Shown piece after piece: positions 3,400 through 63,308 of a stretch of DNA of 64,000 nucleotides. The DNA lies in NCBI GenBank assembly GCA_948567375.1, contig OX419756.1, positions 1,741,001 through 1,805,000 on the forward strand, read 5' to 3'. The notes beneath the pieces are model-generated. The model searched no databases. It was not told where the DNA came from and was given only the letters and a program-made list of their open reading frames with translations. How positions within the stretch are numbered: the stretch's first letter is position 1; each line of letters begins with the position of its first letter. Origin of the DNA: Lunularia cruciata. Lineage: Eukaryota > Streptophyta > Marchantiopsida > Lunulariales > Lunulariaceae. The position numbers and the translations under genes were made by a program.

Positions 3400-6000
3400 T
3401 GCAATTTGCTTATGACTAGACAAGGCAAGTTGATAAGCAATAAAAGAATGATTTATGTTATATCAAATAGACCTATCCAATAAGGAGTGAGTTTACAAAC
3501 TTGGGCATCTAGTGGGAGGGGCAGATTATTAGACAAAAGCATGACTTTATCACCTAGTTGAAAGATGAGATCCTAATAATGTTGATCAACATATTACTTT
3601 TGCCAATTTTGAGCAAAAAGGAGGTGAGATTTGGCTTGTTGTTGGATTTAGATTTTGTCAACAAGAAGATTGAAGTATGAGGATAATAAGATGGTGAGAG
3701 AGAAAAAAGGGAATCTAGAACAAATGGGTCTTGGCCAAAAGTAAGGAAGAAGGGAGAGAATCCAAGGGTTGCCTACTTGGAGCTATTATAGGTAAACTTA
3801 ACATCCACAAGGCAAGCATTCTAGTTGGTAAGGTGAACACTGACAAAGGCATGAAACATATCTTCCAAGGTATCATTTTATATGTTCAATTTGCCCATGA
3901 ATTTGAGGATGATAGACCATAGACAAAGCAAGCTTGGTGCCGAGTAGCTCAAAAAGTGCTTGCCAAAATTTACCAATGAGTTGATGATCACAATTGGAGA
4001 TGAGAACCCATGGCATCCCATGGTGCTTAAAGATAGTGTCAAAGTAAATCTTGGCTAGCATGGGATCATCCATGGTATCCCACGGTGGGTGCTAAATAAA
4101 TTCCTTGCTAAGTTTAGTGAAAAACACCACAATGGCGGTATGATCTTGATTTGTTTTGGGTAAGGATGTTATAAGGTCAATACTTACTTGTTCCCATTGG
4201 GAAATTGGGATAGGAAGAGGTTGAAGGAGTCCACCTAGTTTTTTGTTGCTGACTTTGTTGCATTGGCAACTCTCACAAGAGCAAACAAACTCTCAAACTT
4301 CTCATGCCATGTTTGGTTAGCATGATTGATATTAGAGGGTATCAAGGTTTTATCCACACCCAAATGACCAGAAATTAATAAGTTGTGGGGTTCTTGAAGG
4401 CACATAAGCTAGAGGTCACTCATTGCTAGAACATAGATCTTATGCTCAAAAAATAGAATGCATTCCTTGAAGGAAAATGTATTGTACTCCTTGTCATGCA
4501 TTGCAAGACAACTTTGCACCAATTGAACAAAGGGGTCCTATTATAAAACAATCTTGGATGACATGCGTACCTTTGAGTTAGTTGACATTGTGGTGATTTT
4601 TGCAACCATGGGAGATTTAGGAAGAAGCTTCAAATCAAGACGTCATGATAAGACATTAGAAATGATATGGAACCTATTAGGTTTGTACATAAGCTTGATG
4701 TCAAATAACTATAGTTGTTCCTCCCATCAATTGTACTCTTCATGTGCTCCCAATATATTAAGTCTACAATAAAGGTTTGTGATTGATTTGCATGATCACT
4801 TGTTTCTCCAAGAGATAATGCTTCCATATGTTTGTAGCATATATCATTGCTAGTTGTTCTTGATCTAAAGCAAAGTAATTCTTTTCTATGGTATTTAGTC
4901 AATGAGACACAAAGGCAATGGGATGTTACCCATATGGAAGTTAATGCTGCAACATTACTCCAATGGAAAAGTAAGAAGCATCAAAATCAATCACATAAGG
5001 TAGTAGGGGGTTATATGGTTGGAGGATGGGTCATGAAGATATACCATATGCTTCAATTACTTGAATGATTCTTTGTGCCTGGTTGTCCAATAAAAGCTTG
5101 AGGTCTTCCCCAAGAGATCAATCAATGGTACAGCCACATGAGCATAATAGTGGATGAACCATTGGTAAAAGCTCACCAATCAATTAAATGTTTGCACTTT
5201 TGTGATATTTTTTTGAGTATGCAAATTGATAATGGCCTTGATTTCTATTCTTCCATCTTGATCCCTTTTGATGAGACTTTATGACCTAAAAGGTAACTTC
5301 TTTTTGCAAAAAGGCACATTTTGACTTCTTGCAATAAAATTTCCATTGGCATGGGCATTTTAGGTCTTCTCATATATGATTCTTGTGTTGTACCTCTATC
5401 TTTCCATAACTTAAAATATCATCCAAGAACACTGCCATGTACTGATCCAATAGTCCATCCAACAACCAATGCATTTGATCCATGAAATGACATTAGTGAG
5501 CATTAGTGAGCCCAAAAGGTAAGACTCTCCATTCAAAATGCCCATACCTTGTGCAAAAGGTAATCTTTTGCACAACTTCCTTATCAATGGAATTTGCCAA
5601 TAGCCACTTCAAAGGTCCAACTTGGAGAAATATTTTACTCCACTAAATTGATCTAGAAAATCATCAATTTGAGGCAAGGGATATGCATTCTCATACAATT
5701 TTTTTTACTAAGGCCCTGGTAAACAATATAGAATCAAAGTCCTCCATACTATTTTCTTACAAAGAGTATTCGTGCTCCACAAGGAGATGTACTATGTTGA
5801 ATGAAATATTTCTCCAACAACTTGGTTTGTGTTGTTTGAAGTTCTTCTAACTCCTTTGGTGAGAGCCTATAGATTGGTCTACTCACAAGAGTACTACTTG
5901 GTAATAACTCAATCTTGAAGTGCATACCTTGATTAGAGGGTAATCCCTTTGGAAAATCATCAAGAAACACATCTACAAACTCCTAAAATATTTGATCAAC
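3400..6000 (-). pseudogene. Gypsy A pol relic: RT, RNase H, integrase
   Basis: Minus-strand fragments match Ty3/gypsy pol in order. RT starts near 5970 (FPKGLPSNQGMHFKIELLP, then SRPIYRLSPKELEELQ) and continues to about 5200. RNase H with the tether region lies near 4620-4900 (KELLCFRSRTTSNDI). The integrase zinc finger has CSCESCQC near 4280. The integrase core lies at 3873-4073, with FKHHGMPWVLISNCD carrying the second catalytic Asp and HPQIHGQIEHIK carrying the Glu region (consensus HPQTDGQTERVN). Frames shift repeatedly and internal stops are frequent, so no functional polyprotein is possible. Family identity is clear; exact domain edges are approximate. Confidence 0.8.
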
Positions 6001-6444
6001 TATGGTTTGATGAGGCTTTTGGCTGTCATCAACTTCTCTTTGACCAAAAAGCTTGATCCACACTATTTAAAGAAGAATATCTTCTTCCAAAGCTTGCTTT
6101 ATGATTGCTTTCTTGAAAATTTTCCCATCTTGGGAATGATTGTTCTTAGATGTCTTACTCAAAGGTTCTTGACAACCTAATTGGTAATTCTTACCTTGGT
6201 CTTGTACTTGAATTTTTTAATGGATCTAATCAAAATGAACCTTATGACATTGAAGCCAAAGTAAACCTAGAATGACATCATAGTGTAGAGGTGTTACTAC
6301 AAATCTAATACACTCCTCATATTCCTTCCCAATTTTGAATGTAATAGGATGTGTGGTATAGAATATATAGCACTTTCTACTATCCACAATCATTAATTTA
6401 CTTCCAAATATTGGCTTGACAAGGATACATAATTTCTTTGCTAA

Positions 6445-7733
6445 TTACATTGACATGCAATTTTCTAAATTTCCAAAATCAACCAAAATCCTACAACCAC
6501 GATCAAATATTATACCTTGCAAGTGAAGGAATCTTTCATAGGTCAAGCCTTCAATCCCATTAGAACCATTATGTTCCCAATAGATGGCTTGATATTTCCT
6601 ACTAGGATTCTTTATTTCATTGATCATCACATTTCATAAACTCCATTTGGCAATTTGTTGGGGCCATCTATTCTTTAGTGTACACTCAATAATTCAATGT
6701 CCAATTTGATGAAAATAAAAGCAACCACTATTTTATAGTAATCTCATCTTAAATGTAGTGCAAAGTGGTCTCCATTGGATGATATCAATCTCCATCTCCT
6801 CCATCCATATGTTATGTGTTGGTAGGCTCTATGAAGGTTGACTTCAAGATCTAGTTGTAGCAACCAAGGAATCAAAGTGCTCAACCAATTGCATGGCTTT
6901 CTCCATGTGTTTGTGCTCCCACATGGTCATTTCTTATTTGGTGCATGACTTCAAGCTCCTCCCAAATTGATCCAAAGCTTCAACTTCTAGTATCTTTGGA
7001 ATTTGCATTATGGTGTTCTAGAATTGAATGATGTATTGAACCAATTGGCTTCAATTTTTCCAATCTATAGTGTAGTGAATGTAATATTTATAACTTGGAA
7101 TCCCTCAATTATCATGCTATTGAATTTTCACATGTCGAGATTGGTACAATAAACTACCATTGAGCTTGCTCCACTCAAAATTTCCACCATATTTTTGCCT
7201 CTCCATCTAGTTGGCTTGAAGCCAAAAGAATCTATCCCTCTTCATCTTGAAGATTTGTAACTTCAAAATAACATTTATAATGAAAGATAAAATTCTCCAC
7301 TACTCCCAAGAGATTCTTGCCTTCAAATACCTTGGGGTTTAGAAATTGGATTTGCTCTTCTAGTACTCAAAATGGTTCTCTTTCTACATGCTCTTGTTGT
7401 TGATGATCTTTATGTTTTAGCAATTAAGTAAGGTGCTTGATTTGTTGTTGCATAGCAATGATAACTTTGGGCATCATTGTCATGGCTACTACTCTATCAA
7501 ACTACTTGCAATTATTTCAGTTAACACAAAGATGCAACAAGTCTACCACTTTTTGTAAGTTACAATCTAAAGTATCAATGGTTCATCAAATAAGGTGATC
7601 ATATTCAAAAAGAATTTCCCAAAGTGTTAAATGATGAATTGCATGAAATGATATTTGGGTAGTAAATGGATTCAAACCTCCTAATGGTTTGAGAAAAATG
7701 GATTTGGTTGTCCATAAATTCCATCCATCCATC
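6445..7733 (-). pseudogene. Gypsy A gag and protease relic
   Basis: Gag begins downstream of the primer-binding site (MDGWNLWTTKSIFLKPLGG near 7730-7670). A zinc knuckle occupies 6682-6723 on the minus strand with CX2[C to F]X4HX4C spacing and a stop inside it. The protease segment follows at 6445-6630 (GCRILVDFG). The usual DSG triad reads DFG, and the same DFG occurs in the sister copy near 61750, so the change may be inherited from a common source copy. The frame is broken. Confidence 0.7.
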
Positions 7734-7750
7734 CCATTACTTTGATACCA
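7734..7750 (-). other. Primer-binding site of gypsy element A (tRNA-iMet type)
   Basis: One base inside the 5' LTR (minus strand) the sequence reads TGGTATCAAAGTAATGGG. TGGTATCA is the standard match to the 3' end of plant initiator methionine tRNA, used as primer by many plant gypsy elements. It independently confirms minus orientation. Confidence 0.8.
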
Positions 7751-7751
7751 A

Positions 7752-8175
7752 TGTAAAAGACCAAGGAGAGAAATAAAAGAATGGAAGACCATAGTGGAAC
7801 ATCACATTGGGACTCTCGGTTGAGGATTCCTCCAAATGCCTAGCATGAGCTTGGGCTTTGGTATTTATAAAAAACATACAAGGCTCTTGAGAAGTTCCCA
7901 AGGAAGATTCCTACTAGAAGCCACCTTTTTGGAGTGCAAGCTAAGCTAGCCAGGAAGCTTCCAAAGAAGCTTCCTCATAAGAACCACCTACTTGGCATGC
8001 AAGCTAAGCTAGCCAAAAAGCTTCCTCCTAGAAGCTACCTACTTAGCATACATGCTACTTGACACATGGAAGGTACCAAGAAGTTTCCTAGATGTTTCTA
8101 GAACATTGTTAGGTTGCTTGGCTAATTTGGTCTATTTTTTTACTTGTTAGCCTCTACTAACTCTATATTGTTACA
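7752..8175 (-). repeat. 5' LTR of gypsy element A
   Basis: TGTAAAAGACC...TATTGTTACA on the plus strand, 424 bp, homologous to 2707-3090. In element orientation it is the upstream LTR because the primer-binding site adjoins it at 7750. It contains an extra copy of the subrepeat built around AAGCTAAGCTAGCCA and GAAGCTTCC. The family member at 60000-60484 is longer again (485 bp). Confidence 0.9.
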
Positions 8176-14000: not shown

Positions 14001-14794
14001 ATCTTGTAATTATAGACTTTCTATCTCCTAGACTCCAGGAAGATTTAAGTAGTGCTTAGGAAACATATGCACACTTGACCCTTACTAACATCTTTGTTTA
14101 TGGGGTTATTATCGATAAAGGTGTGTTATTCTTGATAAGAGTAGAGTTTCTTTTTCTTTCAGAGGGAGGGAGTGTTCTAAAGCTTGGCTCTATGCTTCTT
14201 GTTTGATTGAGTACTTTTGTTTCTATTCTGTTACAATACTCCTTTAATTTTTTTATTTTTGGGTTTAGCATATATACACTTTTGAATCTACCAAACTAGA
14301 ATAATTGCATATTACATATATGCAATTGAATAACATATGATTATATGAGACACCAAGTAGACATATCTTTGGACGTGATTTGGGTGAAAGGCACACCAAA
14401 GTCTATGTAGCTACTAGATATAAAATTATAAATCTATATGTTCCTAAGTACTTGCGTATACACATTGGGTGATGTTCTTTTGGTAGAGATCCGTAGGAGT
14501 TTATAATGCTGTCATGAATAGAATGACATAAATGTTATGGTCTATATGTTTCCAAGCATAGATTAAGTGAGTGGTGGTTAGATTTACCTAGCGTACCTCC
14601 TTGGAGAATGAGGGAGCAAGGGCAAAGACAACCATTTCCACGAAGGAGGAAGAGGACTACTATGGGCCACAACTAGTCTTATATACATTTTACCTTTGAC
14701 ATTGGAGATTTTTGGGTATCTTTACATAAATTATATATGCAAGCAAAAGGTGGCTCTTTATCAAACACTTCGACAAGGTTATATACCTCAATAT
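11050..14794. other. AT-rich intergenic stretch without recognised genes
   Basis: No frame gives a recognisable protein and no paired terminal repeats were seen. The only clear structure is the imperfect tandem repeat at 11990-12330. Scattered short motifs look like old transposon debris but could not be assigned. Confidence 0.5.
11990..12330. repeat. Imperfect short-unit tandem repeat
   Basis: Many degenerate 12-15 bp units of the type AGCGGCTACRRGCAMC are strung together and interrupted by a larger duplicated block (GCAAAATCYCATTT...ATCCTAAATTAACACAT), present near 12160-12195 and 12290-12318. The open reading frames crossing it look like repeat translation, not genes. Confidence 0.7.
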
Positions 14795-15230
14795 GTTATT
14801 GTTGCAGACTAGAGCTAGTCTTTCCCCACGGGCATGAGATGACTTTCCATCTTTTGCTTCACTATTGTCATATTGGACTAGAGGTTTACAATCTTCCTTG
14901 ATGGAATGACAATGTGAGCGTATGCTACATTCTCTCTTAGTTGACGTCCATTCCTCAAGCTACTAGAGCACCTCTTCGCTCTTGCTCCACCAACGGTACA
15001 TGCTCTTGGATCCTAGCTTGACCGTGGATTAGGGCATTCTGACTCGCACCAGCTACTTTCTCTATAGCTATGAGGTTTTGCTAGGTTTGGTCCACCCATC
15101 TGTATCTTCATTACTCACTTGTGAGTATGGTTCTACACTAGATCCAACAGCGGTCCATATGACACAATGTCCTTTTGGAGGACAAAGGATAGCTACCCAT
15201 GATGCTATTAGGGACATAGTGTTTGCTATG
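14795..15230 (+). mobile_element. RLE-type non-LTR retroelement, 5'-truncated copy, left half
   Basis: This is homologous to the minus-strand element at 40008-43343 (its 41100-40640 portion read in reverse). It includes the region encoding the zinc-binding segment before the endonuclease: TCEYGSTLDPTAVHMTQC and GGQRIATHDAIRDIVFAM at 15119-15230. Homology appears to begin near 14795, consistent with the 5' truncation usual for target-primed reverse transcription. The methyltransferase retroelement is inserted at 15231, and the right half continues at 25317. Confidence 0.72.
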
Positions 15231-15686
15231 TGTCACGCCATTTGTAGTTCCGCATCTAGCTGCTCGGACACTGGAGTTCTAGTGATAGTAGTTAGAGTTA
15301 TTCTAGTAGTTTCTCAAGGACTACTTTCCGACAGTCTGATTTGGTGTTCGGGGTACTGACTTCACGGTGGGGCCCACCGTCACTTTGCACCGTCGAGTGT
15401 GCCGTCAGCGGGACCGTTAAGGTTCCAGTGCTAGCTCGAGTCCAGGGGGGTATAGTTTCGAAGTGAGCTCCAGAGAGCTCACTTCTCTGATGTTGAGCCT
15501 TCGAGTTCCTGGCTATGGTAGATAGAGGCCGGCGAGCGTCACCTGGATTCTCTATGCTTGAGTGGGTGTGGCTTGAGTGGGTGTGGCTTGACTGTAATCA
15601 GTGCCCAGTTGTTGGCAATTTATAGAGTGACAGATCAAGTACTAATCTGAGTTGAGTTGAGTTGAGAGTGTTAAGCAATCTGATTA
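15231..15686 (+). repeat. 5' terminal repeat, B segment only
   Basis: It starts TGTCACGCC directly after the TSD and matches the 3' repeat until GCAATCTGATTA at 15686. There the 3' repeat continues into segment A, but this copy goes into the internal leader (CATTAGAGAAG). It contains (GAGTT)n near 15645-15665 and a hairpin at 15460-15485. Compared with the 3' copy, substitutions are almost all transitions and about half are CG to TG/CA. A 15-bp duplication (CTTGAGTGGGTGTGG) is specific to this copy. Confidence 0.9.
15460..15485. other. Hairpin within terminal repeat
   Basis: GAAGTGAGCTC and GAGCTCACTTC form an 11-bp perfect stem around a CAGA loop. The same hairpin is intact in the 3' repeat at 24990-25015. 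In the two older family copies one arm (GAGCTCACTTC) is retained exactly while the other has drifted. The role is unknown; possibilities are an RNA structure in the transcript end or a protein-binding palindrome. Confidence 0.8.
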
Positions 15687-16102
15687 CATTAGAGAAGTGA
15701 AGTCAAGGGGAAATTGGGTACAAGAACGTTGAGTGTTGGTGGTATCTCCAAGCTCGGTGGATCGTGGTAGCTCGATTCAAGTTTTGTGTTTCCCTAGTGT
15801 GCAGAAGCCCGTTCAAGTGATTCAGATTTGGCAGTTAGGCGGACGGTGTGCGGAAGTGCTTGCCAAATTTTGAGCAAAGAAGGAGCAATTTTCGAGCAGT
15901 GTTGTGATTTTGAGCTCAGGAGGTGAAGGCATGACCAATTTGCTGCGAGTTGGGCTTAGAAAGTGAAATTGAAGGTGGAGTTGGGAAGCTCTTCTCATGA
16001 AATTGTGATTTAGAAAAACTTGTTTTATCAATTTGGCTCGAGTGGAAAGTTAGCGGGGGATTTGGCGGACAGCCATCTTTAGGGTTTACGTCAAATTTTG
16101 AG

Positions 16103-16215
16103 CCAGATTTGGAGGAGTTTTCGCTGTTTGGCCAGATTTGGAGGAGTTTCACTAGTTTGGAGGACTTCTGCAGATTTGGAGAAGTTTTGCCAATTTTGGA
16201 GGAGGTTTCGAAGTG
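16103..16215 (+). repeat. Tandem repeat in retroelement leader
   Basis: About four imperfect 25-30 bp units beginning CAGATTTGGAGGAGTTT, each followed by a variable CGCTGTTTGGC-like tail. It explains the open frames seen here on both strands, which are not genes. Confidence 0.75.
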
Positions 16216-16470
16216 GCAACAAGAAAGGCCCCATTTGGCTGAATTTTGGCGTTTCAAGGCTTTGATATATACCATCAATAGGCATGGAGTGAGCAACGTA
16301 CGTTCATGCACTTCGCCATTTGCAGAGCTCAGGTGCCAATGGTTAATTGCTGGTTGACAAGGACCGAAAGAGTCTCCGATTTGCCAGTACAGAACCTCAT
16401 CTTAAATACAAGAAAACCGGCTTTGAGGCATAGGGTTGTGGGCTATGAGAGGCTACGAAGGCCTGGAAGG

Positions 16471-16492
16471 GCCAGCAAGCCAGCTTGCTGGC
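16471..16492. other. Short perfect hairpin in leader
   Basis: GCCAGCAAGC and GCTTGCTGGC form a 10-bp stem with a 2-base loop. It lies about 0.9 kb upstream of the likely gag start. It could be an RNA packaging or dimerisation element; the function is not shown. Confidence 0.7.
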
Positions 16493-17156
16493 GTGAGGCT
16501 AGCTAGTTTAGAGTAGATCTTGGTCATTGGTTGGCAAAATCTGCCTTTCTCGCTAGATTGTGCGCAACAGGGTTTGACTCCTAGATCTCTTGTTCCTAGA
16601 CTGGTGCCCTAGCCAACTGGTCCACCCTCACTTGTTGTCCTAGTGACTGCGCCACTGTTATCTATACACATGTAGCTTTGGCTAGGAGAGGCAGTTTGAT
16701 CCCATTCTTGGTGATCCTGGTAGCTTAGGACTTAGATACGAACTCCTCTTATGTCAAATGCCAAATGGTGGCAGAGTCTGTCCTGTGTTGTGTTATGAGA
16801 TGGAGGGTTTTCGTTTAGATTTCTTGTGATTGGATCCCCTCCATTCTGTGCTTCTTGTTTATGCACCATGTTTGTGTGAGGTGCCCTAACTTTTGAGCGT
16901 TGGTGCTCTGGTGTGCTCTCGGTGGTGAGGCTGGAGTGATGACCAGTCAGACTACCTTTGTTTCTCTCCGGTAAGGCAGGAAGTGATGACCTGTAGACCG
17001 TGAGAGTGCGTGTTATGATGGCAGGTTACAGGTTGCACTTCCCCTAGTGTAGTTATCTCGGTTAGAGTTACATTAGTGGGTGGTGTTTAGTTGGTGTTGG
17101 CACGTGGTGGTGTTGGTACTTGGTGGGGTACTTGCGGTTGCGACTTGCGGTTGTAG

Positions 17157-18638
17157 TTGGTAGTTCGGGTTTGGTGTTGTGGTTACTTTGTCACGACGGA
17201 GTCCTTTGGAGATTCAAGAGGAGTTAGCCCTGCAGTACATAGTGGGTTTACTCGGAGTGGTGCTCGGTATCAGCTTGTATCTCAGGTCCCAGTGAGGGAG
17301 GAGATTGACTCTGAGTTGGAGTTTGACACAAGAGCTGATTTAGTTGAGAGTGCACTTGGTGTGTCTGCACCGTTGTTGTGGGACATGGACGAGATTTATG
17401 GGGCCTCCAAAGGCCCTAGGCGTTACTCTGGTACAGTGGGTACCATTGAGTTGGATGACTTCATCCAGGAGTTTGATAGTTGGTGTGATCTGCAGCAGAT
17501 GCGGAACCCGACTTTGTTCACACCCTTCATGGCATGGAAGGGGTTGTTTCAGCATCTAGAGGGTCCGCCGATGGATGATTACCATGATTTCAGGAGAGCT
17601 CATTTGGAGGAGATTGAGTTATGGAGACAATATTGGTCTCCACACTATGTTTCCATCACTTCAGGCTTGGTGGCCAGGAGTAGATCAGCTATACCCACGA
17701 GTTCTAGCTCGAGTAGTGGTGGTGGAGCTAGTGGAGGTGCACTAGCTGGAGATAGTGCTACTACGAGTGGAAGTACCGCTGCAGGAGGTGGTGTGGTACC
17801 GGGGTTTAACCCCATGGTTGAGTTCTTCCTATGTTTGAGGCAGAACTACCAGGGAGTTCGGACTTACAAGCTGAGGAGCTTGCAGGAGTTCTAGCGGAAG
17901 GCTAGAGAGAGCCTACGCGAGGCATACACTCGCATGAGGCGGCTGATCAGTTTCACTCAGGGAGTTACTGAGGCCCAGGCAGTCCAGTTTTGGTATGGGA
18001 TACTGGATAGGGAGTTGCAACGTAAAGTTCGTGATGCTACGTTGTTGCAGGCTACTTCGCCCACCTTGGCAGTAGTCTTTGGTTTGGCTAAGCGTATTGA
18101 GCTCAACATGGTGGAGGAGAGAGTGGTGACATCTGGATTTGGTAGGGAGACCTCATCCACGGCTGTGACTTCTTCTAGAGTGCAGCAGAGTGCACCACGC
18201 CCAATTGGTTTTTGAGGACAGGGTGGACATCCTAGATCCTATGGAGCAAGTGGAGGAGCTAGTGGAGTTAGACCCTTACCCTCATTTTTGGGTCAGCAAC
18301 AGCCAGTGAGTGGTGGTGTTGCTTGTTGGACTTGTGGTGGACCTCACCATAGGAGAGAGTGTACTCAGGGCAGCGGACCTGATACCTCTGGTGCATTACA
18401 GCCAGCACAGAGGCTGTGTGAGCATTGCCATAGGTTTGGTCACACTAGTGACTGGTGTTTTGACCTACACCCGGAGTTACGGAGTGGTAGGGTTGCTATG
18501 GCAGGTAGTAGAGGAGCTCCAGTTCATGGAGGACGAGGTGGTAGAGGTGGTGGTAGAGGATCCACATCTAGTAGGGGTACAGTACATGCCCTTACTTTTG
18601 ACACAGCTATGGCTACTCGGATTGAGCAGTTGGAGTAG
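17157..18638 (+). pseudogene. gag of methyltransferase retroelement
   Basis: The Gag-like capsid region binds and packages element RNA. The frame is open from 17157 with no ATG at its head; the first in-frame ATG is at 17385 (MDEIYGASKG). The gag core lies at about 17430-18120 (ELDDFIQEFDSW...FWYGILDRELQRKV). A Ser/Gly/Ala-rich linker occupies 17700-17800. Two zinc knuckles follow: CWTCGGPHHRREC at 18324-18362, then CEHCHRFGHTSDWC at 18417-18458, a textbook CX2CX4HX4C. A Gly/Arg-rich tail is at 18525-18560. In-frame stops are TAG 17892, TGA 18213 and TAG 18636. The TGA is a likely CGA (Arg) to TGA change. The same frame continues into the protease, so the original was a gag-pol fusion. Confidence 0.85.
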
Positions 18639-19748
18639 AGATTGGCTAGTATGGCTATTGCTCAGAGGAGATCAGATTCGGGTGCTGAGGCTTCCACCTC
18701 ATATGTTGGTGATAGAGATGCTTTGGACTTCATGTGCGGAGCAACACAGGTGGATGCATCTGCAGCAGTGACTAGGAGTGCAGTACGTGCTCTAGAGCCT
18801 AGACGAGCATCAGTGGAGTTGGACCCACAGAGAGGAGAGGTTGGGAGACAGGTCAGACTTCCCCAGTCTTTCATGCTATTTGAGGCATTGCAAACGACAT
18901 CCATGGTTCCTAGACGTCCTAGTGCAGGTGTGGTAGGTGGTGATGGAGTACCTGCTAGTCAGCCACCTGCTACTACACAGATTGAGTCTAGCATGATGTT
19001 GGGGGCGGCTCAGCTGATTATGCGGCATCCGTTGTTTTCAGCCAGTGACATGTTTACATTGGGAGTTGACCCAGCCCCAGTGTTCCGGTTGGCTGCCACG
19101 TTGTGCGAGAGTAGGGATGGTGCAGTTCCTACTGCTAGAGCAGAGGTGGTTGGTAGTGGAGCTGACTTGGTTGAGGAGCATGGGATCCGTTCAGCGACCA
19201 ATGGTTTATGGCAGGCAGCAGCGGCTAGACTGGAGGAGTTTCCAGCTAGACCGGCCTTTGAGAGAGCGTGGTTTACACTTGGTGTTGTCCTATTGGATAA
19301 CCAGAGGGGGATTTTTTGTTTGGTGGGACCTTCAAGGAAGGTATATACACCACAGAGAGTCTTGTTAGACTCTGGTGCACAGCCCCTTATGTTGGGGAAG
19401 GCTGCAGTTGTTGGTCTGGAGTTACGGAAGACCGATGTGGAGAGGTGTCCATTTCAGATCTAGACATCTCTAGGTGGTGGTTCGACACAGGACATCACAC
19501 GTGGAGAGCTTGTTGTCCAGGTTCAGCGTGGTCATCCGACTGATAGCTTGGTGGTGAGAGCTCAAGCTATTGCAACGATAGCTGAGTCATATGATGTGCT
19601 AGTTGGTGGAGCGGTGTTATACCCCATGGGTTTCAGCATTGACTATTGGGAGGAGACAACCTCTTATAGACCTGGTTGGCAGTCTGGTGAGGGACGGGTA
19701 TGTCGCCTACCAGTACGCTTCAGTAGTGGCAGTCTTGGCTCACTATAG
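18639..19748 (+). pseudogene. Aspartic protease region of methyltransferase retroelement
   Basis: It continues in frame from gag. The retropepsin-like active site LLDSGAQP is at 19362-19385, with the catalytic Asp codon at 19368. It is followed by MLGKAAVVGLEL and the region YDVLVGGAVLYPMGFSIDYW near 19590-19650, typical of the C-terminal half of Ty3 proteases. An N-terminal region of about 200 residues between the zinc knuckles and the active site (18640-19340) has no recognised domain. Stops are TAG at 19461 and 19746. The enzyme would process the polyprotein. Confidence 0.75.
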
Positions 19749-19757
19749 TCCGGGACC

Positions 19758-21364
19758 ATGGTAACATCAATTTTAGCTTTTAGTGGTGCAGTTACTTGGC
19801 CTGATGACTTGTTGGAGAGGAACGCCCATGCAGAGGATACTCCAGTACCAGAGGAGATCACTCGGCTTTGGATTACGAGTGGGATTGTTCCATCCACCTT
19901 GGATGTTCCATTGTGGAGTTCAGAGGAGGCATTGCAGCAGCATGCAGATCAATTGGTGTAGCAGGCTTGGAGTGGAGCTTCGTACCATCAGGAGATGAGT
20001 GTGAGGATGAGCCTCTGGAGGCAATTGCTTTGACACCTCTGGATACCACACTCATTGCTTGGTAGTATCCAGTAGAGGGGATATGCCTATTGGAGTTGTT
20101 TGGTGGGATCAGCACCGGACTAGCTGCGGTGTTACAGGCGGGTATTCAAGTACAGAGGTACTTGTATGTAGAGAGAGATAAGACTGCTAGGCGAGTCTCT
20201 CTACATCATGTGGCACACTTGGCTTATCAGTATCCGGAGTTATTACCGATGTCAGCAGTCAGAGGTTACTAGAAGGCCTTGCCAGGAGATATTTCCTTAC
20301 TGGGGGCGCATGACCTAGAGAGACATGGGCCTATTCACTTGGTGATTTCTGGATGGCCATGTCAGGGACATACACATGCAGGCCGCGGTTTGGGTCTTCA
20401 GGAACCTCGTTCTGGTGTGTTTTGGGAGATGTTACGGATACTACGACATCTCCAAGTTCATCAGTCTGTTTCTCCAGCTTACCTTTTGGAGAATGTTCCA
20501 TTGATGGGTGATTCTCGCACTAGAGTGGTGGCAAGTACACATCAGGTCCATTCATAGATGGGACCTGCTGTATTGTTAGATGTAGCCAGAGTGGGATCAC
20601 GGGCTCATTGTCTTTGTCTTTGGTGGACAAACCTCTTACCCAGAGAGGTTCTACAGCGTAGTTATGATAGGATGCAACGACTAGACCACATTCTTGTTGA
20701 TGATATCTTGGATGTTGGGCGTCAGTCTTAGACAGTGGTAGTGGCTGATAGGTCACCTATGGCAGTGGTGAACCTAATTGGACAGCCTAGAGCTGCATTT
20801 CCCACACTGATGAGTTTCCCAGGCTCTCATGCTTTTTGAAAGGGAGGACCTGGACTTGTTTGGGACTCACAGTTACAGCAGTTGGTGGAGCCCAATGCTG
20901 ATGAGAGAGGGCGGGCAATGGGTTTTCGCATCGGTATTACCGCTGTTCCAGTAGTGTCAGAGGCATCTAGGCGTCAGGTGTTAGGTTAGGCTATGGACCT
21001 AAACTGTTTGACCTGGATTGTGAGCCTTGGCTTGGCAGAGCATCATAGGATGCACTTGATAGGCATCACCACTCGGACACTTGTGAGCCATGTGCCTATC
21101 GAGACGATTCAAGCACATGCTGGGAGTGATAGACCGAGTGGACATGGTATTCTTGGGACACATCCAGTAGCTACTAGGGAGAGTGGTCTACTTGGAGTCC
21201 ATCCAGGTGAGCGTGGGCTACTTGGATTACACCCTTGGTCCACATGGGATGCAGCTAGAGGACGTGTGGAGCTTGCAGCCAGAGTGGAGGGAGTTTTTCA
21301 CACAGAGGTTGGGACCTCTAATGGTCAGGAGCATGACACTATTGCTCCCAAGGGCCCAATGTAG
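19758..21364 (+). pseudogene. Cytosine-C5 DNA methyltransferase domain captured in retroelement pol
   Basis: It transfers a methyl group from S-adenosylmethionine to cytosine C5. Recognised motifs in order: motif I LELFGGISTGLAAVL (SAM binding, about 20087-20131); motif IV GWPCQG with the catalytic Cys codon at 20360-20362; motif VI LENVPLMG with ENVP at 20489-20500; a motif VIII-like segment LLDVARVGSRAHCLCLWWTN near 20575-20633; motif X-like RAMGF and QVLGxAMDLNCLTW near 20920-21010. It lies between protease and RT. The linker 19758-19961 is in the gag-protease frame, and a frameshift near 19965-19990 moves to the methyltransferase frame. Stops at 20063, 20270, 20555, 20729, 20837 (TGA) and 20987 (TAG at a position conserved as Gln) break it. 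I see no additional targeting domain within it. It is not a host DRM or CMT gene: it is embedded in pol. Confidence 0.9.
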
Positions 21365-21397
21365 CAGTCAGCAGTACGTCTTCCACTCCTACTACAG

Positions 21398-22472
21398 TTA
21401 CAGAGGATACTTGGGAGCCAGATCTTGGACCTAAGCTTATTGGAGAGGAAAGACGGAGGGTTAGGAGGTTCTTGAGGAGTCACACGAGTTGTTTTGCCTT
21501 CAGTTGAAGGATTTGGGTGCTCTAAAGGGACCTGGTATACGGATTGAGCTGACTAGCGACACACCAGTTTTCTGACGTCCTTATTGATATAGTGATATGG
21601 AGAGGACATTGATTCAGAGCCGGAGAATTGACCTTTTTGAGGCTGGTTTGGTAGAGATTTCACATGGAGAGTATGCATCAGCGACAGTGATGCCAGCCAA
21701 GAAGGATATGCATGGCAACTATACAAATAGGTGGATGTGTGGAGATTACCGTCCTATCAACCAACAGACCAAGGCTGATCGGTATGCCATGCCTACACCG
21801 GAGGAGATTTTTGATGCGATTGGGCATGCAAAGGTCTTCAGTACTTTGGATCTTTGAGCGGGATATCATCAGTTGCCAATTAGAGAGGAGGATAAGTCCA
21901 AGACAACATTTTGGGCTATTGATCCTCACGGCAAGGATGTGTTATATTAGTGGAGGTTCTTACCATTTGGGTTGAAGAACACTCTTGATGAGTTCCAGAG
22001 GGTCATGGATAGGATCCTAGCTGGATTGGATTTTTCTCGGTGCTATATTGATGACATTTTGGTTTATAGCACTACTATGGAGGAGCATGAGAGACAGTTG
22101 TTGGAGGTGTTTGAGAGGTTGAGATCTCATGGACTCAAGCTACATCCTGGGAAGTGTAGGTTCTTCCACGAGCAGGTTGAGTATTTGGGTCACTCTATCT
22201 ACCCCGGAGGACTTGGTGTTCAGCAGACTAAGGTGGAGCCTATTGCACGCATTCCTCGGCATACGGATGTGAGCAGAGTGCGAGCATTCCTTGGGTTGGC
22301 AAACTTCTATCGCCGCTATGTTAGAGGATTTAGTGCCATTGCCAAGGCCTTGACAAAGCTGACCAAGCTTACACAAGAATGGTGTTGGGGAGATGAGCAG
22401 GAGAGAGCTTTTGTAGAGCTCAAGGAGAGGTTGACATCTGCTCCTATTTTGAGGAGACCGATCAGGGGATGA
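21398..22472 (+). pseudogene. Reverse transcriptase of methyltransferase retroelement
   Basis: A Ty3/gypsy RT. The connector near 21398-21535 has a one-base frameshift close to 21500. RT proper starts with TPVFxRPYxYS (21560-21593), where both x positions are TGA in place of Arg CGA. It continues through GLVEISHGEYASATVMPAKK, GDYRPINQQT and FSTLDLxAGYHQL (another TGA at 21855). The active site YIDD has its Asp pair at 22050-22055, and the thumb region has VEYLGHSIYPGGL and VRAFLGLANFYRRYV. Catalytic residues are intact. It ends near TGA 22470. Confidence 0.92.
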
Positions 22473-23000
22473 CCATTTCAGGTTCACACTGATTGGAGTA
22501 TGTTGGGGCTTGGAGCGGTGCTCACCCAACATGATGATGAGGGGAAGGAGATTGTGGTGGCCTATGCTAGTTGCTCCAACAATTCAGCGGAGGCGAAGTA
22601 TAGTTCATATGAGGGAGAGTGCTTGGCAGCAGTTTGGGCAGTAGCACATTTCCAATGTTACCTATTTGGTAACCCCTTCACTCTCATCACTGATCATCAG
22701 CCGCTGAAGTGGCTGATGGAGTCCGACAAGCTTTTAGGGAAGCTTGCACGATGGGCTCTGATTTTACAGGAGTATGATTTCACGGTTGTTCACAGACCTG
22801 GAGTGGTGAACCGTGATGCAGATGGGTTGAGTAGAAACCCATGTCCCAGCCAGCAGGATCAGACCGGAGCACGTTGGCATGGTGAGGCAGATGAGGAGAT
22901 GGTGCCAAGTTGGCATGCATCGGCCTTTTTGTGTATATTTGCAGAGGCTTTGGTGGTATCTCTCTCAGCGCATACAAGAGGAGTTATTGAGGTCACAGAT
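22473..23000 (+). pseudogene. RNase H of methyltransferase retroelement
   Basis: It degrades the RNA strand of the RNA-DNA hybrid. Motifs: VHTDWSMLGLGAVLTQ (first Asp) at 22482-22530, SSYEGECLAAVWAV (Glu) near 22610, TDHQPLKWLM (Asp) near 22690-22720, and HRPGVVNRDADGLSR (last Asp) near 22790-22830. It reads in one uninterrupted frame from 22473 into integrase until 23313. A decayed homologue of its C-terminal part is at 59762-59953 on the minus strand. Confidence 0.9.
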
Positions 23001-24131
23001 CTAGAGAGTGAAGATATTGGTACAGTTCAGCGAGACATTTATGATGATGTCTTAGTGATGGACTATCTTCGCACTGGTGTTGTGGGTGGCACAGTTGGGG
23101 CCAAGGAGAGAGACCGTGTTCTTCAGCAAGCCAGACGGTTCAGATTGGAGGGTAGACACGTTTTGTGTGTATGGGAGGATGGTAGAGTGCGAGTAGTACC
23201 ACTTCCATCACAGAGACCACAGTTGGTCCATCATGCTCATGAGGAGCTAGGACATTTTGGAGTAAAGCGTACATATAGCTTACTCCAGAGTCATTATTGG
23301 TGGCGCGGTATGTAGACCAAGGTACAACAGTTTGTTGCCAAATGTGTGGTTTGTGACCGAGTTAGAGCATCATTCAATGCTCCTATGCCACAGTTACACC
23401 CATTACCTATAATGGGATTGGGTTACCGTTGGAGTTTGGACTTCGCCGGACCTTTACCGCTGACTGTGAGACATCATTGGTATGTTTTGGTGATGGTGGA
23501 GCACTTCTCCAAGTGGATTGAGTTGGTGGCACTTCCTGACAAGTCTAGTGAAGGGACAGCTTACTCGTTCCTGGATCGAGTTCTTAGTCATTTTGGTGCA
23601 CCAGCTGAGGTTTTGACTGATCAGGGTACAAAGTTCTTGGGGGAGTTTCAGGTCTTGTGTGACAAAGCTTTGATTGATCATCGTACTACATCCCGAGATC
23701 ACCCTGAGGCAGATGGCTTAGCAGAGAGAGTGGTTCAGACGGTGAAGAGAGGATTGCAAAAGTATGGTTTGTAGAGAGGCCACTTGGGAGATTGGGATCT
23801 CCAGTTACCTTGGTTGGCCATGGGCTATCGGTTCAGCCGGCAAGCCTCCTTAGCATCTTTCTCTCCATACTTTCTACTCTATGGACAAGATCCAGATTTA
23901 CCTGCAGCCATTTGTCGAGATGCTATTGTAGTTTTGGACTTGGATGACCCCGATGTATGGATGAGTGCATGTTCTCAGCGGGCCGAGATCTTTCGAAGAG
24001 TGATGCCGATGGCCTTTGAGAACTTGGCGATTGCTCAGCATAGAGATACTTTACGCTATGCTACCATTCGAGGAGGAGGTTATAGACCCTTGATCCGTCA
24101 ATTTCATTCAGGCGACTATGTATATCTATAG
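23001..24131 (+). pseudogene. DDE integrase of methyltransferase retroelement
   Basis: It inserts the element DNA. The HHCC zinc-binding domain has HHAHEELGHFG and CVVC at about 23229-23360, interrupted by TAG 23313. Catalytic core: first Asp in WSLDFAGPL near 23432-23455, second Asp in VLTDQGTKFLG near 23612-23640, and Glu in the segment HPEADGLAERVVQ near 23700-23740. Stops TAG at 23772 and 24129. A C-terminal region GYRFSRQASLASFSPYFLLY follows. The presence of a DDE integrase argues against classification with tyrosine-recombinase (DIRS/Ngaro) elements, despite the split terminal repeats. Confidence 0.9.
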
Positions 24132-24476
24132 CAGACAGCACCGATGACACTTGATGTTTCTACAGGCCGCACTATCTTGAGAGTGCGTGAGGTTTTGCCA
24201 TCTGGAGTCCTTGTGTTAGAAGGACGTGATGGTGTTGTGTGGAAGGATCATGTGCGCAATTGTGCGCCATGCCACCTCCCAAACATTGATGGTACTATGG
24301 ACCCAAGCTTGGCACTTGTACGTGCAGGCTTGAGGTGTATGTTATGTGGCTCTTCTGGTGGAGCTGCTACTATGTTAGTGTGTGATAGTTGTTTGAGAGG
24401 ATGGCATATGGCATGTATGACTCCTCCCCTCATGGTGGTTCCTCAGGGATAGTGATTATGTCCTAGATGTACTTGA
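24132..24476 (+). pseudogene. PHD finger at the polyprotein C terminus
   Basis: After VRNCAPCHLPNIDG the frame encodes a C4HC3 PHD finger. CMLC is near 24336-24347, LVCDSCLRGWHMAC near 24376-24418, TPPL follows, and the final W-x-C-x2-C appears as two stops followed by LCPRC at 24456-24470. The first stop (TAG 24450) falls where the conserved Trp is expected. PHD fingers commonly bind the histone H3 tail. In a retroelement integrase this would plausibly replace a chromodomain for target-site choice; that role is inference. Confidence 0.85.
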
Positions 24477-24628
24477 CCTATAGCTAGTTCATTCTTTGTA
24501 TGGTATAGATTGCAGACATGCGACTAACGATGGGGCTCCATAGCACCCGGCCTCCTGATCTTTGCCCATTAGAGGGTATACCATATACTTAGAGTAGATG
24601 GCTATCTGGAGTTAGAGGGACCTAACCG

Positions 24629-24643
24629 CCAGCTAGGGGAGCG
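24629..24643 (+). other. Polypurine tract preceding segment A
   Basis: CCAGCTAGGGGAGCG lies directly before segment A (ATTGTGGCAC). The decayed minus-strand copy has CAACTAAGGGAGCT in the same place before its own segment A (58521-58535), so the tract is conserved. Its position before A, not before B, suggests reverse transcription treats A as the start of the downstream repeat. Confidence 0.7.
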
Positions 24644-24750
24644 ATTGTGGCACTTTAGAATCTATGTATGACTTATGTGTGAGTTGTGCTTCTATAGTGT
24701 ATGATGTTGACAACGATGTATGTTGTGTAGCGATGTATATACGCACAACA
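24644..24750 (+). repeat. Segment A, internal copy
   Basis: 107 bp from ATTGTGGCACTTTAG to CGCACAACA, nearly identical to 25206-25312. It follows the polypurine tract and is separated from the next B segment by GC (24751-24752). Segment A is absent after the 5' B segment. Confidence 0.9.
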
Positions 24751-24752
24751 GC

Positions 24753-25312
24753 TGTCATGCCATTTGTAGTTCCGCATCTAGCTGCTTGGACACTGGAGTT
24801 CCAGTGATAGTAGTTAGAGTTATTCTAGTAGTTTCTCAAGGACTACTTTCCAACAGTCTGATTTGGTGTTTGGGGTACTGACTTCACGGTGGGGCCCACC
24901 GTCACTTTGCACCGTTTGCACCGTCGAGTGTGCCGTCAGCGGGACCGTTAGGGTTCCAGTGTTAGCTCGAGTCCAAGGGGTATAGTTTTGAAGTGAGCTC
25001 CAGAGAGCTCACTTCTCTGATGTTGAGCCTTCGAGTTCTTGGCTATGGTAGACAGAGGCCGGCGAGTGTCACCTGGATTCTCTATGCTTGAGTGGGTGTG
25101 GCTTGACTGTAATCAGTACTCAATTGTTGGCAGTTTATAGAGTGACAGATCAAGTACTGATTTGAGTTGAGTTGAGTTGAGTTGAGAGTGTTAAGCAATC
25201 TGATTATTGTGGCACTTTAGAGTCTATGTATGACTTATGTGTGAGTTGTGCTTCTATAGTGTATGATGTTGACAGCAATGTATGTTGTGTAGCGATGTAT
25301 ATACGCACGACA
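24753..25312 (+). repeat. 3' terminal repeat, B plus A segments
   Basis: B (24753-25206) starts TGTCATGCC and A (25206-25312) ends CGCACGACA, so the unit has TG...CA ends followed by the TSD. It carries the 26-nt hairpin (24990-25015) and (GAGTT)n at about 25162-25188. A solo copy of this B-A unit is at 62747-63308. Confidence 0.9.
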
Positions 25313-25316
25313 TATG

Positions 25317-25968
25317 GCACGAGAGAGAAGATACTTGGCTCGGAGGGAGCGTTCATATGCTTTGGATGAACGTTCCCTCCAAATGACACATGTCAAGGCA
25401 GATTTATACTTGGTCTGAGATGATCAAGTGATAGAAGCGGGTGTTGGGGTTACGGACCCTATGCAATATACAGTTTTGGAGGGAGTGATTACACACCCCC
25501 TTGGGTGGGCGGCGAGTGCAACAGCAGGTCGCAAGGTCTCTAAGTATAGAGGCATGCAGCAAGGTCACCTCTTTGTCCCTCTAGCCCTAGAGTTATATGG
25601 AGCGATGGACTCGGCATTCGACACATTTGTCAAGGAGTGCACGAGAGCTTATCATGTTAAGCACCAGGGGTACCACTCTCACTCTCATACTTTGTAGTAT
25701 ATTTTAGGCAGCGTGTGTCAATTGCTCTACAGAGGGCAATGGCTGGTGCAATCTATAGGAGAGCAATCACACTAGGTGTGCTTCTTTGGATGCTCCAGTT
25801 GTTTGTAGACCATTCGACTGGCATAGCTCGGATATCTTAGGTGCAGTACGGCAGATTTCTCATACAGACTCTATTGGGGCCCAGCCTATTTTACCTTTTT
25901 TGTCCCTCCCTTCTTCGGCTTGATGGGGTCTTCCCATCCAGTCGATTCTGTACAGGGTCGCATTTTTC
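25317..25968 (+). mobile_element. RLE-type non-LTR retroelement, right half with endonuclease remnant
   Basis: This is the continuation of the copy interrupted at 15231. The frame 25428-25697 encodes the end of the restriction-like endonuclease domain: VTDPMQYTVLEGVITHP, ATAGRKVSKYRGMQQGH and FVPLALELYGAMD. Compared with the 40.3-kb copy, the catalytic-type Asp in VVDVVVTDP is lost (here EAGVGVTDP). The 3' untranslated part ends near 25968 (CTGTACAGGGTCGC), where homology with the minus-strand copy (end near 40008) stops. Confidence 0.75.
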
Positions 25969-40007: not shown

Positions 40008-40304
40008 GGCAACCCTGTAGGAGAAATGAAGGATGGGAAGACCCCATCAAGCCGTACAAGGGAGAGACAAAAAAGGTAACATGGGGCTAAGCCCCAATAG
40101 AGTCTGTATGAGAAATCTGCCCTACTGCACCTAAGATAACTGAGCTATGCAAGTCGTACAGTCTACACACAATTGGAGCATTCGAAGAAACATCACCTAA
40201 TGTGATTGCTCTCCTATGGATTGCACCAGCCACTGCCCTCTGTAGAGCAATAGACACACGTTGTCTAAAATATGCTACAAAGTATGAGAGTGAGAGTGGT
40301 ACCC

Positions 40305-57940: not shown

Positions 57941-58520
57941 TGTTGTGCACATATACATTGCTATCAACATCATATACTATAAAAGTACATCTCATATATA
58001 AAGTCACACATGAACTCCAAAGATCCACAATAAAGCAATGTCCCAAACCTGAAACTTAACACTCAATGTACATTGCAAATAGGCCTTGATCATATTTTCA
58101 AGTCACACTCACTCTAGCTAAGAGAATCACGGTGACACTTGCTGGCCTCTATCCACTATAAACAACAACTTGAATGCTCAAAATAGAAGAAGTGAGCTCT
58201 TTGGAGCTGCACTTTGAGGTATACCTTTATTGGAGTGGCTAGGAATCTAACCATACTGATGCATCTAATGGTGAAAATGGTAGCTTCAATGGGGCAATCA
58301 ATCAAATTAATACCATATCTAACCACCTCTAAGTATCTCTTGAGCAACTATTGATAATATAGTAATTGCCAAAACTAACACTCTAGTGTCCTAGCAAACT
58401 AGCTCCAATGCTACAAATGTTGTGACAACTATTGTGCATATATACATTAATATCAAAATCATATATTATAGATGAACAACTCATATTGAAAGTCAAACAT
58501 GAACTCCAAAGACTCACAAT
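57941..58520 (-). repeat. Terminal repeats A-GT-B-A of the decayed copy
   Basis: Read on the minus strand: A starts ATTGTGAGTCTTTGG after the polypurine tract and ends TGCACAATA (58430). It is followed by GT (58429-58428), then B starts TGTCACAACATTTGTAG (58427), and a second A ends TGTGCACAACA (57941). This reproduces the A-GC-B-A order of the 24.6-25.3 kb end in an old, independent copy. Confidence 0.82.
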
Positions 58521-59999
58521 AGCTCCCTTAGTTGGCAATTAGGTCCCTCTAACTCTAGATAACCATCTATTTTACGTATGTGGCATGCTTTATTGTGAGC
58601 AAACATCATGAGTTGGCTGTTTTTGAGCCCCATCAAGAGTTGTGATCTAGTGTATTATGGATATACAGAATCACCTAGATAGAACCAATAGATTTAAAGG
58701 TCTATAATCTCCCTCTCAAATTGTAGCATAACATAAGGTATCCCCATGCTAAGCAATTCCTAAGTTCTCTAAAGACATCAAAATCACTTTTCAAAAGATC
58801 TCTACCCATTGAGAACATATGCTCACCCATACAGCCAAATCATCCAAGTCCAAAACTATAACCGCATCACAATGAATGGCTACAAGTAGATCTAGATCTT
58901 GGCCATAAAGAGAAAGATGCTAAGGAAGCCTGTTGGCTGAAAAAATAGCTCATAGCTAAGCAAGGTAAATGCAAATCTCAAGCTCCTAAGTGGCCTATCT
59001 ACAAACCATACTTATGCAATGCTCTTTTCACCATTTGAATCACTCTCTTTGCTAAATCATCTACCTTAGGGTGATCTTGGGAGGTAGTACGGTGATCAAT
59101 CAAGTGCTTGTCACACAAGACTTGAAAATCCCAAAAACTATATACCTTGATCAATCAAGACCTCAACTAAGGCACCAAAATGACTAACAATCTAATCCAA
59201 GAACAAGTAAACCATCCCTTCACTAGACTTGTCAAGAATCACCACCAAATCAATCCATTTGGAGAAGTGCTCTACCATAACCAAAACATACCAATGATGT
59301 CTCACAATCAATGATAAAAGCCCAAAATCAAGCATTAATCCAACCCATGATAGATAATGGATATGATTGAGGCATAAGAAAATTTAATAATGCTCTAACT
59401 TGGTCACAAACCACACATCTAACAACAAATTAATGTACATTGGTTTGCATATTGCACTACCAATGATAACTCTAAAGTAAATTATATGCTTACTTTATTC
59501 CAAAATGTCATAGTTCCTCATGAGCATGTTGTACCATCTATGGTCGCTAAGATAGAAGGAGTATTACTTGTACTCTACCATCTTCCAACATCAAAGAAGA
59601 TGTTTGCATTCCAATCTAAATTGTTTGGCTTGTTGAAGGACATTATTTATCTCCTTGGCACCAATTATGCTACTATAACATTAGTGCAAAGATAGTCTAT
59701 CACCAACACATCATCATGAACATCTCAACTCTAGATCTAAGACCTTGACAACTTCTTGTATTTATACTAAGAGAGATACCATTAGAGTCTCAATCAATAT
59801 ACATATAAAGGTAGATGCATGCCAACTTGATACCATCTCCTCATTCTTCTCACCATGCCAATGTTCTCTGGTCTGATCTTGATGGCTAATATATAGATTT
59901 CTAGTTAGCTCATCTACATCATGATTCACCACTCTAGGTCTATGAATAACCATTCATGTAAAATTAGAGCACATTATATAAATTCCTTGAAAGCTTATC
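57941..59999 (-). mobile_element. Decayed minus-strand copy of the methyltransferase retroelement family (3' part)
   Basis: On the minus strand: RNase H to integrase linker at 59762-59999 (RPRVVNHDVDELTRN and DEEMVSSWHAS-like text matching 22790-22930); integrase core at about 58990-59430 (RHHWYVLVMVEHFSKWID, then SHFGALVEVLIDQG); a non-coding tail; the polypurine tract CTAAGGGAGCT at 58521-58531; and terminal repeats arranged A (58430-58520), 2 nt, B-A (57941-58427). The PHD region is not recognisable and may be deleted. The 5' part including the methyltransferase is cut off at 60000, where gypsy copy A2 begins. Confidence 0.78.
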
Positions 60000-62746: not shown

Positions 62747-63308
62747 TGTTGTGCATATAAACATCACTACACAACATACATCAATGTCAACATCACCCAC
62801 TATAGAAGCACAACTCACACATAAGTCATACATAAAATCTAAAATGCCACAATAATCAGATTGTTTACAACTCAAATCACTTGAACTCAGATCAATACTT
62901 GATCTGATCCTCAACAACTTGCCAACAATAGAGTAATGATTATAGTCAAGCCACACCCACTCTAGCTAAGAGAATCTAGGTGATGCTTGCCGGCTTTTGT
63001 CCACTCTAACCAAGAACTCAAGGCTCAACATCAGAGAAGTGAGCTCTTTGGAGCTGCACTTCCAAGGTATACTCCTAATTTTGACCTCATTTTCACCTCC
63101 ATTAGGCCTCATCCCAACGGTCCTATTGACGGCACATGATGGTGTGGACGGTGTAAGCAACGGTGGGCCCTGCCATAAGTCAATACCATAAACACAAAAT
63201 CTAACCATTGGAAAGTAGTCTATGAGTAATTGCCAAATACCTCTAACTACTATCATTGGAACTCCAGTGTCCAAGCAATCTAGATGCAACTCTACAAATG
63301 GCGTGACA
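62747..63308 (-). repeat. Solo B-A terminal repeat of the methyltransferase retroelement family
   Basis: 562 bp on the minus strand from TGTCACGCCATTTGTAG (63308) to TATGCACAACA (62747). It matches 24753-25312 along its length with substantial divergence. Flanks TAGT (62743-62746) and TGGT (63309-63312) are a 4-bp duplication with one mismatch. There is no internal sequence, so it is a solo unit. It splits the RT of gypsy A2. Confidence 0.87.

Follow-up and report, generated by a model that had tools for sequence, protein, structure and literature searches.

The question raised by a locus in the liverwort Lunularia cruciata is why a retroelement should keep an enzyme that adds the mark used by plants to silence it. 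The locus lies in a window of 64,000 nucleotides, the whole stretch of DNA that was analysed here (GenBank assembly GCA_948567375.1, contig OX419756.1, positions 1,741,001 to 1,805,000 of the forward strand), in which a retroelement carrying a DNMT3-like cytosine-C5 DNA methyltransferase domain occupies positions 15231–25312. This element is one decayed member of a Gypsy-type liverwort family with a high copy number, and it is probable, judging from the sequences compared below, that the family has kept the methyltransferase as a working part, namely as a packaged de novo enzyme that would methylate the element cDNA or a new insertion. The enzyme has been maintained by selection across the copies, and the silencing mark of plants may accordingly be set by the parasite itself.

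An initial annotation, made from the letters of the sequence, had read the locus as a Gypsy-type element with a methyltransferase between protease (PR) and reverse transcriptase (RT), and the Pfam matches to PF00145, RVT_1, RNase H (RH) and rve agree with that reading, the protease being recognised by eye (Table 1). The methyltransferase (MT) had been predicted at 20080–21010, and failure to detect PF00145 there was set beforehand as the refuting test; the domain was detected at 20063–21035, with an E value of 1.2e-7 and 31.9 bits against a curated cut-off of 22 (stops read as X). Motifs I (FGGISTG), IV (PCQG) and VI (ENVP), also named in that annotation, do lie in one frame, together with AMDLN. 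The RVT_1, RNase H, Integrase_H2C2, rve and PHD matches sit in separate open pieces 3' of the methyltransferase, and the order RT, RNase H and then DDE integrase (IN) is present. No Pfam match was obtained for two pieces of the gag-like frame that were scanned, for the protease region of the window copy or for the first RT piece (21588–21854); the protease text LLDSGAQP recurs in protein P0082 of Calypogeia, and the region of the relative P0156 that corresponds to the protease is PF13650. The decay of the window copy is seen in the methyltransferase frame, which differs from the frame of gag/PR and RT, and in 25 stops (16 TAG and 9 TGA) within the alignments to relatives. Deamination was considered as the cause of all of these stops and explains about half, as only 12 of the 25 face Gln, Arg or Trp in the relatives.

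The predicted enzyme is DNMT3-like and closest to the DNMT3 catalytic domain, as judged from its canonical motif order (motif I before IV and VI) and from the fold of the relative P0001. A DRM-type enzyme is not favoured because the motif order is not rearranged (in DRM, VI–X stand before I–IV), and a bacterial type is not favoured either. Two host genes belong to the same superfamily as the element enzyme, and P0001 shares 29% and 31% identity over about 130 residues with L017 and L018, respectively. L017 is DNMT3-like and split by an intron, with one exon itself closest to DNMT3, and L018 is a DRM gene in which the motifs are permuted (by eye). In the methyltransferase tree all 39 retroelement rows lie on one side of the host DNMT3 and DRM (support 100; both host branches are long). 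These trees include no sequence named Klebsormidium, the charophyte for which a comparable element, KnitGypsy-Dnmt3, has been reported. As a separate observation, the residue before the catalytic Cys is Glu, not Pro, in 20 relatives including P0156, P0160 and P0173 (GWECQG in P0156). To our knowledge, C5 methyltransferases vary hardly at all in the motif to which this Pro belongs.

Copies of the family were sought in the host genome (566 Mb, 74 contigs) using PF00145, for which the best 123 scored matches of 2161 candidates were retained, and using the P0001 protein, for which the best 111 of 13363 were retained; both lists hold the best candidates only and hence give lower bounds with a bias toward intact copies. 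Among the P0001 matches, 107 of 111 span residues 2–368 and the other four nearly do so. Stops are present in 45 of the 111 and absent from 66, and an open frame of exactly 1428 amino acids surrounds eight of the 66. Every fifth row of the PF00145 list, from row 10 to row 105, was taken as a sample (n=20), of which 19 belong to the element family and one (row 15) is a host DRM-like gene by motif order. The family is high-copy in this liverwort genome, and a one-off chimera is excluded by at least 111 near-full-length matches and by the 19 of 20 sampled PF00145 matches that fall in the family. On the companion concern, that most copies might lack the domain, the sample is silent, having been drawn from methyltransferase matches.

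Selection was examined by aligning 16 copies with the window copy; a variant was counted as shared if present in at least three rows and the expectation was derived from context-matched random mutation. The methyltransferase holds 17 nonsynonymous and 22 synonymous shared variants against 27.5 nonsynonymous expected (z −3.8), its singletons lie nearer to neutrality (0.62), and in the wrong frames shared variants are not depleted. The variants shared among copies thus show purifying selection on the methyltransferase. Since shared variants stand at 0.53 (z −1.9) and singletons at 0.93 in the integrase-PHD region, the methyltransferase has been under constraint no weaker than that on the integrase end.

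Relatives were gathered by a domain search (222 proteins, 120 of them among the matches listed) and a long-protein search (75, all listed). Every match listed that carries an organism name is from a bryophyte (Marchantia polymorpha, M. paleacea, Riccia sorocarpa, Calypogeia fissa and three Sphagnum species), with M. polymorpha accounting for 14 of the 75 long-protein rows, and the remainder derive from metagenomes or lack an organism name, three of them coming from EukProt. No vascular plant is named among these matches, though repeats are commonly masked during genome annotation, and absence from vascular plants does not follow. In the Calypogeia protein P0082 the protease text and the methyltransferase are within a single open reading frame (ORF), and in the distant relative P0156 Pfam finds a knuckle, aspartyl protease, methyltransferase, RT, RNase H and integrase in one protein. 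The relatives have two domain orders, PR-MT-RT-RH-IN and RT-RH-MT-IN, the latter mostly with a PHD finger; in 37 polyproteins with both domains, the methyltransferase precedes RT in nine and follows RNase H in 28. Trees of the methyltransferase and of RT, built quickly and without bootstrap, each place this split on a single branch (support 96 and 99, respectively), and pairwise distances for the two domains are concordant (Mantel r 0.79, 0 of 2000 permutations; r 0.96 and 0.65 for the two groups taken separately). This concordance indicates that the enzyme has long travelled with the element. The catalytic residues are kept across distant relatives. The proteins P0157–P0193 are mostly metagenomic polyproteins of the order RT-RH-MT-IN-PHD, a second Pol position of the same methyltransferase lineage. 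In Viral_contigs, no relative was found in the first two scans, and a third gave 16 matches to the methyltransferase, all weak.

How the enzyme might be deployed is indicated by the stop that follows it. In each of 24 copies examined (the 19 sampled copies, L021–L024 and the window copy) an in-frame TAG followed by CAR-YYA lies between the methyltransferase and RT, so that UAG separates Gag-PR-methyltransferase from RT-RH-IN-PHD. The hexamer after the TAG is CAGCCA in 19 copies, CAGTCA in four and CAGCTA in one, the frame beyond is open for between 36 (window copy) and 192 codons of the stretch seen, and in copies L021–L023 this frame continues past the stop into RT text. The sequence CAR YYA 3' of UAG is described as essential for readthrough in tobacco mosaic virus (TMV) (PMC2754532). 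With UAG, CAR YYA and an open frame beyond, the element has a predicted readthrough site of the TMV type, at which Gag-PR-MT would be the main product and RT-RH-IN-PHD the readthrough extension.

The methyltransferase domain ends the first translated unit (Gag-protease-methyltransferase), and RT follows the UAG-CAR-YYA in the same frame in other copies. If the stop is leaky, the methyltransferase would be made at the level of Gag, enter the particle and be cut loose there by the protease, and RT and integrase would be supplied in smaller amounts through readthrough. With less assurance, we suggest that the enzyme then methylates its own double-stranded cDNA, in the particle or in the nucleus, or the fresh insertion, and new copies would in this way arrive already methylated. 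If so, pre-methylation may lower the cost of the copies to the host or hide them, rather than shield them from silencing.

Differences between the A repeats and between the B repeats of the window copy are 22 transitions and no transversions, 17 of them in CG or CHG, and 12 other copies have 115 transitions (52 CG, 43 CHG and 20 CHH) and 19 transversions. This pattern indicates that integrated copies carry the marks of CG and CHG methylation. Several considerations nevertheless weigh against a working enzyme that methylates its own element. CHG is nearly as frequent as CG in these scars (43 vs 52), which points to host CMT-type methylation, and the scar is hence not proof of self-methylation. 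The selection test depends on 39 shared sites; the depletion among singletons (0.62) is unexpected under wholly neutral decay, and some of the variation may predate insertion. The 111 scored matches, as the best of 13363 candidates, favour intact copies, and the leaky-stop site could come from one founder, in which case the 24 copies are one conserved site and not 24 independent events. Finally, the Klebsormidium domain showed no activity in yeast, a result that its authors deem inconclusive (PMC5890265).

The other explanations that we weighed differ in how well they stand up to this evidence. An enzyme acting mainly in trans on host DNA, with effects on the methylome of the host or on how other elements are silenced, would suit a family with many copies, 66 of the 111 scored matches being free of stops, and an enzyme that sits on the upstream product, but Klebsormidium, which has such elements, shows a methylome like that of land plants in published data (PMC5890265), and we think this account unlikely. 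A separate matter is whether the liverwort family and KnitGypsy-Dnmt3 captured their methyltransferases independently, and here we lean somewhat more firmly to the negative. PMC5890265 describes an acquisition in the K. nitens lineage that was independent of the one in dinoflagellates, and no sequence named Klebsormidium is among the matches listed; against this, the A-coding-B-A-B repeats and a Gypsy pol are common to both elements, and the retroelement methyltransferases all fall to one side of the host enzymes, with the long host branches noted above. That the methyltransferase is a passenger, captured once and carried along at no benefit to the element, is very improbable given the purifying selection on shared variants, the catalytic residues kept in distant relatives and the co-inheritance with RT, even though decay of the window copy and the stops in 45 of the 111 scored matches speak for it. 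The least credible proposal gives the enzyme a role as weapon or defence against rival DNA parasites such as viruses or competing elements, as put forward for transposon methylases by Morozov and colleagues (PMC6338049), who reasoned that land plants lack such transposons; the presence of these elements in liverworts and Sphagnum removes part of that argument.

The terminal repeats are split, with A alone at the 5' end of the window copy and B-A-B at the 3' end. The form of a canonical long terminal repeat (LTR) element with two identical direct LTRs is ruled out by this arrangement, and a DIRS/PAT tyrosine-recombinase element by the rve integrase, the repeat layout alone being shared; on its domain content the element is named Gypsy-type by its Pol and is not a canonical LTR element. 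The 3' end is a contiguous B-A-B in 16 of the 19 sampled copies, the remaining three being row 30 (B-A-leader-B), row 105 (without B2) and row 80 (the retrieved stretch contains no 3' repeat). Thirteen of the 19 have a 5' A without B, and for the other six no 5' A was present in the retrieved stretch. Row 30 (L033, L034) also has a rearranged leader and is perhaps a recombinant or tandem form. An exact 4-bp target duplication is present in 11 of 12 copies with both ends testable, under a test in which the base preceding the terminal A was left free (row 100 ends GA); the exception is row 35.

The A/B junction is GATTA/TTGTGG in 16 of 16 copies, the leader junction is GATTA/CATCAGAG in 13 sampled copies (CATCAAAG in row 35), and at the B/A junction there is a 2-bp spacer, GC, AC or GT in sampled copies and GT in the older copy at 58 kb. 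A purine tract, CTAGGGGGGCG or variants of it, precedes B1 in 18 sampled copies in which B1 was read and is likewise found before B in the 58-kb copy. With this tract in front of B1 and an unvarying junction following the 5' A, B-A would be the LTR for reverse transcription; a tRNA-like primer site was looked for by eye in the leader after the 5' A and none was recognised. The ends made by the integrase (TG...CA, with the 4-bp duplication) fall at the B/A border, and neither inserted end retains the 2-bp spacer. Opening of a circular or end-joined cDNA at B/A would explain both the position of the ends and the lost spacer. We put forward, tentatively and as a possibility that is not the likeliest outcome, that a DDE-integrase element inserts from end-joined or circular cDNA, the expected B-A-internal-B-A being found in the genome circularly permuted, as A-internal-B-A-B. 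Together with a Gag-level DNMT3 and a leaky stop, this would amount to a distinct replication strategy of one Gypsy group, with the cDNA being methylated first and opened at B/A afterwards. Free choice between two B/A junctions in a circle predicts some insertions of the form A-B-A-internal-B, which was seen in none of the 13 copies with a known 5' A, and the simple circle model is weakened.

The boundaries of the insertion are exact, as a second copy of the target sequence inside the window, at about 40.2–40.8 kb (− strand), provides the empty site; the initial annotation had described an insertion bounded by target site duplications, and TATG flanks the TG...CA ends at 15227–15230 and 25313–25316. 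The target is a LINE-like (long interspersed nuclear element) repeat with copies at 40100–43379 (−) and at 14787–15226 plus 25317–25901 (+), the latter hosting the Gypsy insertion and the former being the empty site; its match to RVT_1 (E 0.007) is under the curated cut-off. Another repeat has two inverted copies, at 4809–8025 (+) and 60214–63955 (−), the second of which hosts a solo A-B repeat of the Gypsy family, and diverged direct-repeat families with a spacing of mostly about 1.1–1.3 kb occupy 52994–56075. The host is a land plant, as first proposed: a bHLH gene at 35.1–37.3 kb is 75% identical over its whole length to MpBHLH7 of Marchantia polymorpha and 62–63% identical to those of two Riccia species, which places the host among liverworts close to Marchantia yet apart from M. 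polymorpha.

Table 1. Features of the methyltransferase-bearing element and of related sequences in the window
Feature	Position	Strand	Basis
Terminal repeat A at 5' end, from TG to CTGATTA, without adjoining B	15231..15686	+	Repeat comparison; same in 13 sampled copies
Leader between A and gag frame; begins CATTAGAGAAGTGAAG	15687..17156	+	Read from sequence
gag-like frame, stop-broken; two zinc-knuckle-like motifs (by eye, 18216–18635)	17157..18635	+	Called gag by its place
Aspartic protease region (LLDSGAQP)	19350..19748	+	By eye
DNMT3-like cytosine-C5 methyltransferase domain, stop-broken	20063..21035	+	PF00145 E 1.2e-7; relatives; fold of relative P0001
TAG CAG TCA, predicted leaky-stop site of UAG-CAR-YYA type between methyltransferase and RT	21362..21370	+	Motif in 24/24 copies
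Reverse transcriptase, open pieces 21588–21854 and 21951–22469	21588..22469	+	RVT_1 3.3e-18 in second piece
RNase H and integrase zinc-binding domain	22473..23312	+	RT_RNaseH 3.4e-35, Integrase_H2C2 2.1e-10
Integrase core, rve, DDE type	23316..23771	+	rve 2.5e-13
PHD finger, shortened by stop	24336..24449	+	PHD 6.1e-7, profile 1–33 of 47
Purine-rich tract, polypurine tract-like, directly before B1	24635..24644	+	By eye
Terminal repeat B, inner copy (B1), ends CA	24645..24750	+	Repeat comparison
2-bp spacer GC between B1 and A	24751..24752	+	Read from sequence
Terminal repeat A, 3' copy	24753..25206	+	Repeat comparison
Terminal repeat B, outer copy (B2), ends CA	25207..25312	+	Repeat comparison, empty site
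Target site duplication, left (TATG)	15227..15230	.	Empty-site alignment to 40.2–40.8 kb (−)
Target site duplication, right (TATG)	25313..25316	.	Empty-site alignment
Older relative	57943..59951	−	Matched only from RNase H end onward; same B-A-B 3' end
Solo A-B repeat, inserted in another repeat	62747..63308	−	Repeat comparison within window

Liverworts and Sphagnum carry such elements, in high copy in the present genome, and as the enzyme has been kept through deep divergence, why a parasite keeps an enzyme that marks it for silencing becomes testable; Marchantia polymorpha, a transformable plant, holds relatives. A census of bryophyte DNMT3 genes that does not separate the retroelement copies would miscount. 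No paper on DNMT3-Gypsy elements of land plants was found in the open-licence literature searched, and, judged from that literature, the land-plant occurrence, the leaky-stop placement and the two domain orders appear to be new. A 2025 survey (PMC12344493) cites the KnitGypsy/SymbioDIRS report for streptophytes and dinoflagellates.

The kind of retroelement is already known from KnitGypsy-Dnmt3 of Klebsormidium nitens, described as a Gypsy element with a Dnmt3 domain and DIRS-like repeats (PMC5890265, de Mendoza et al. 2018), and the liverwort element, Gypsy-type with a Dnmt3 domain and A-coding-B-A-B repeats, fits that description. The charophyte precedent invoked in the initial annotation is therefore real, and closer than was claimed, as the repeat arrangement is the same. 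Both elements combine Gypsy domains with a Dnmt3-like methyltransferase whose motif order is not rearranged, and purifying selection is reported for both. Methylation of integrated copies is a further point in common, described as CHG and CHH methylation for KnitGypsy-Dnmt3 and seen as CG/CHG deamination scars in the liverwort family. SymbioDIRS-Dnmt3 of dinoflagellates (PMC5890265) also has a Dnmt3 domain in a split-repeat retroelement but is a tyrosine recombinase element, whereas the liverwort element has a DDE integrase. Readthrough has been proposed in another plant Gypsy element, of the RIRE2 type in rice, where a candidate readthrough stop is described and no methyltransferase is mentioned in the text available from PMC2754532. 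In contrast to KnitGypsy-Dnmt3, the liverwort family has a land-plant host and a high copy number. A PHD finger stands at the end of the liverwort Pol, the word PHD being absent from the KnitGypsy-Dnmt3 text as available (PMC5890265). Finally, that report places the methyltransferase in the Pol polyprotein ORF, whereas in the liverwort element it lies before the putatively leaky UAG, where it would end a Gag-PR-MT unit.

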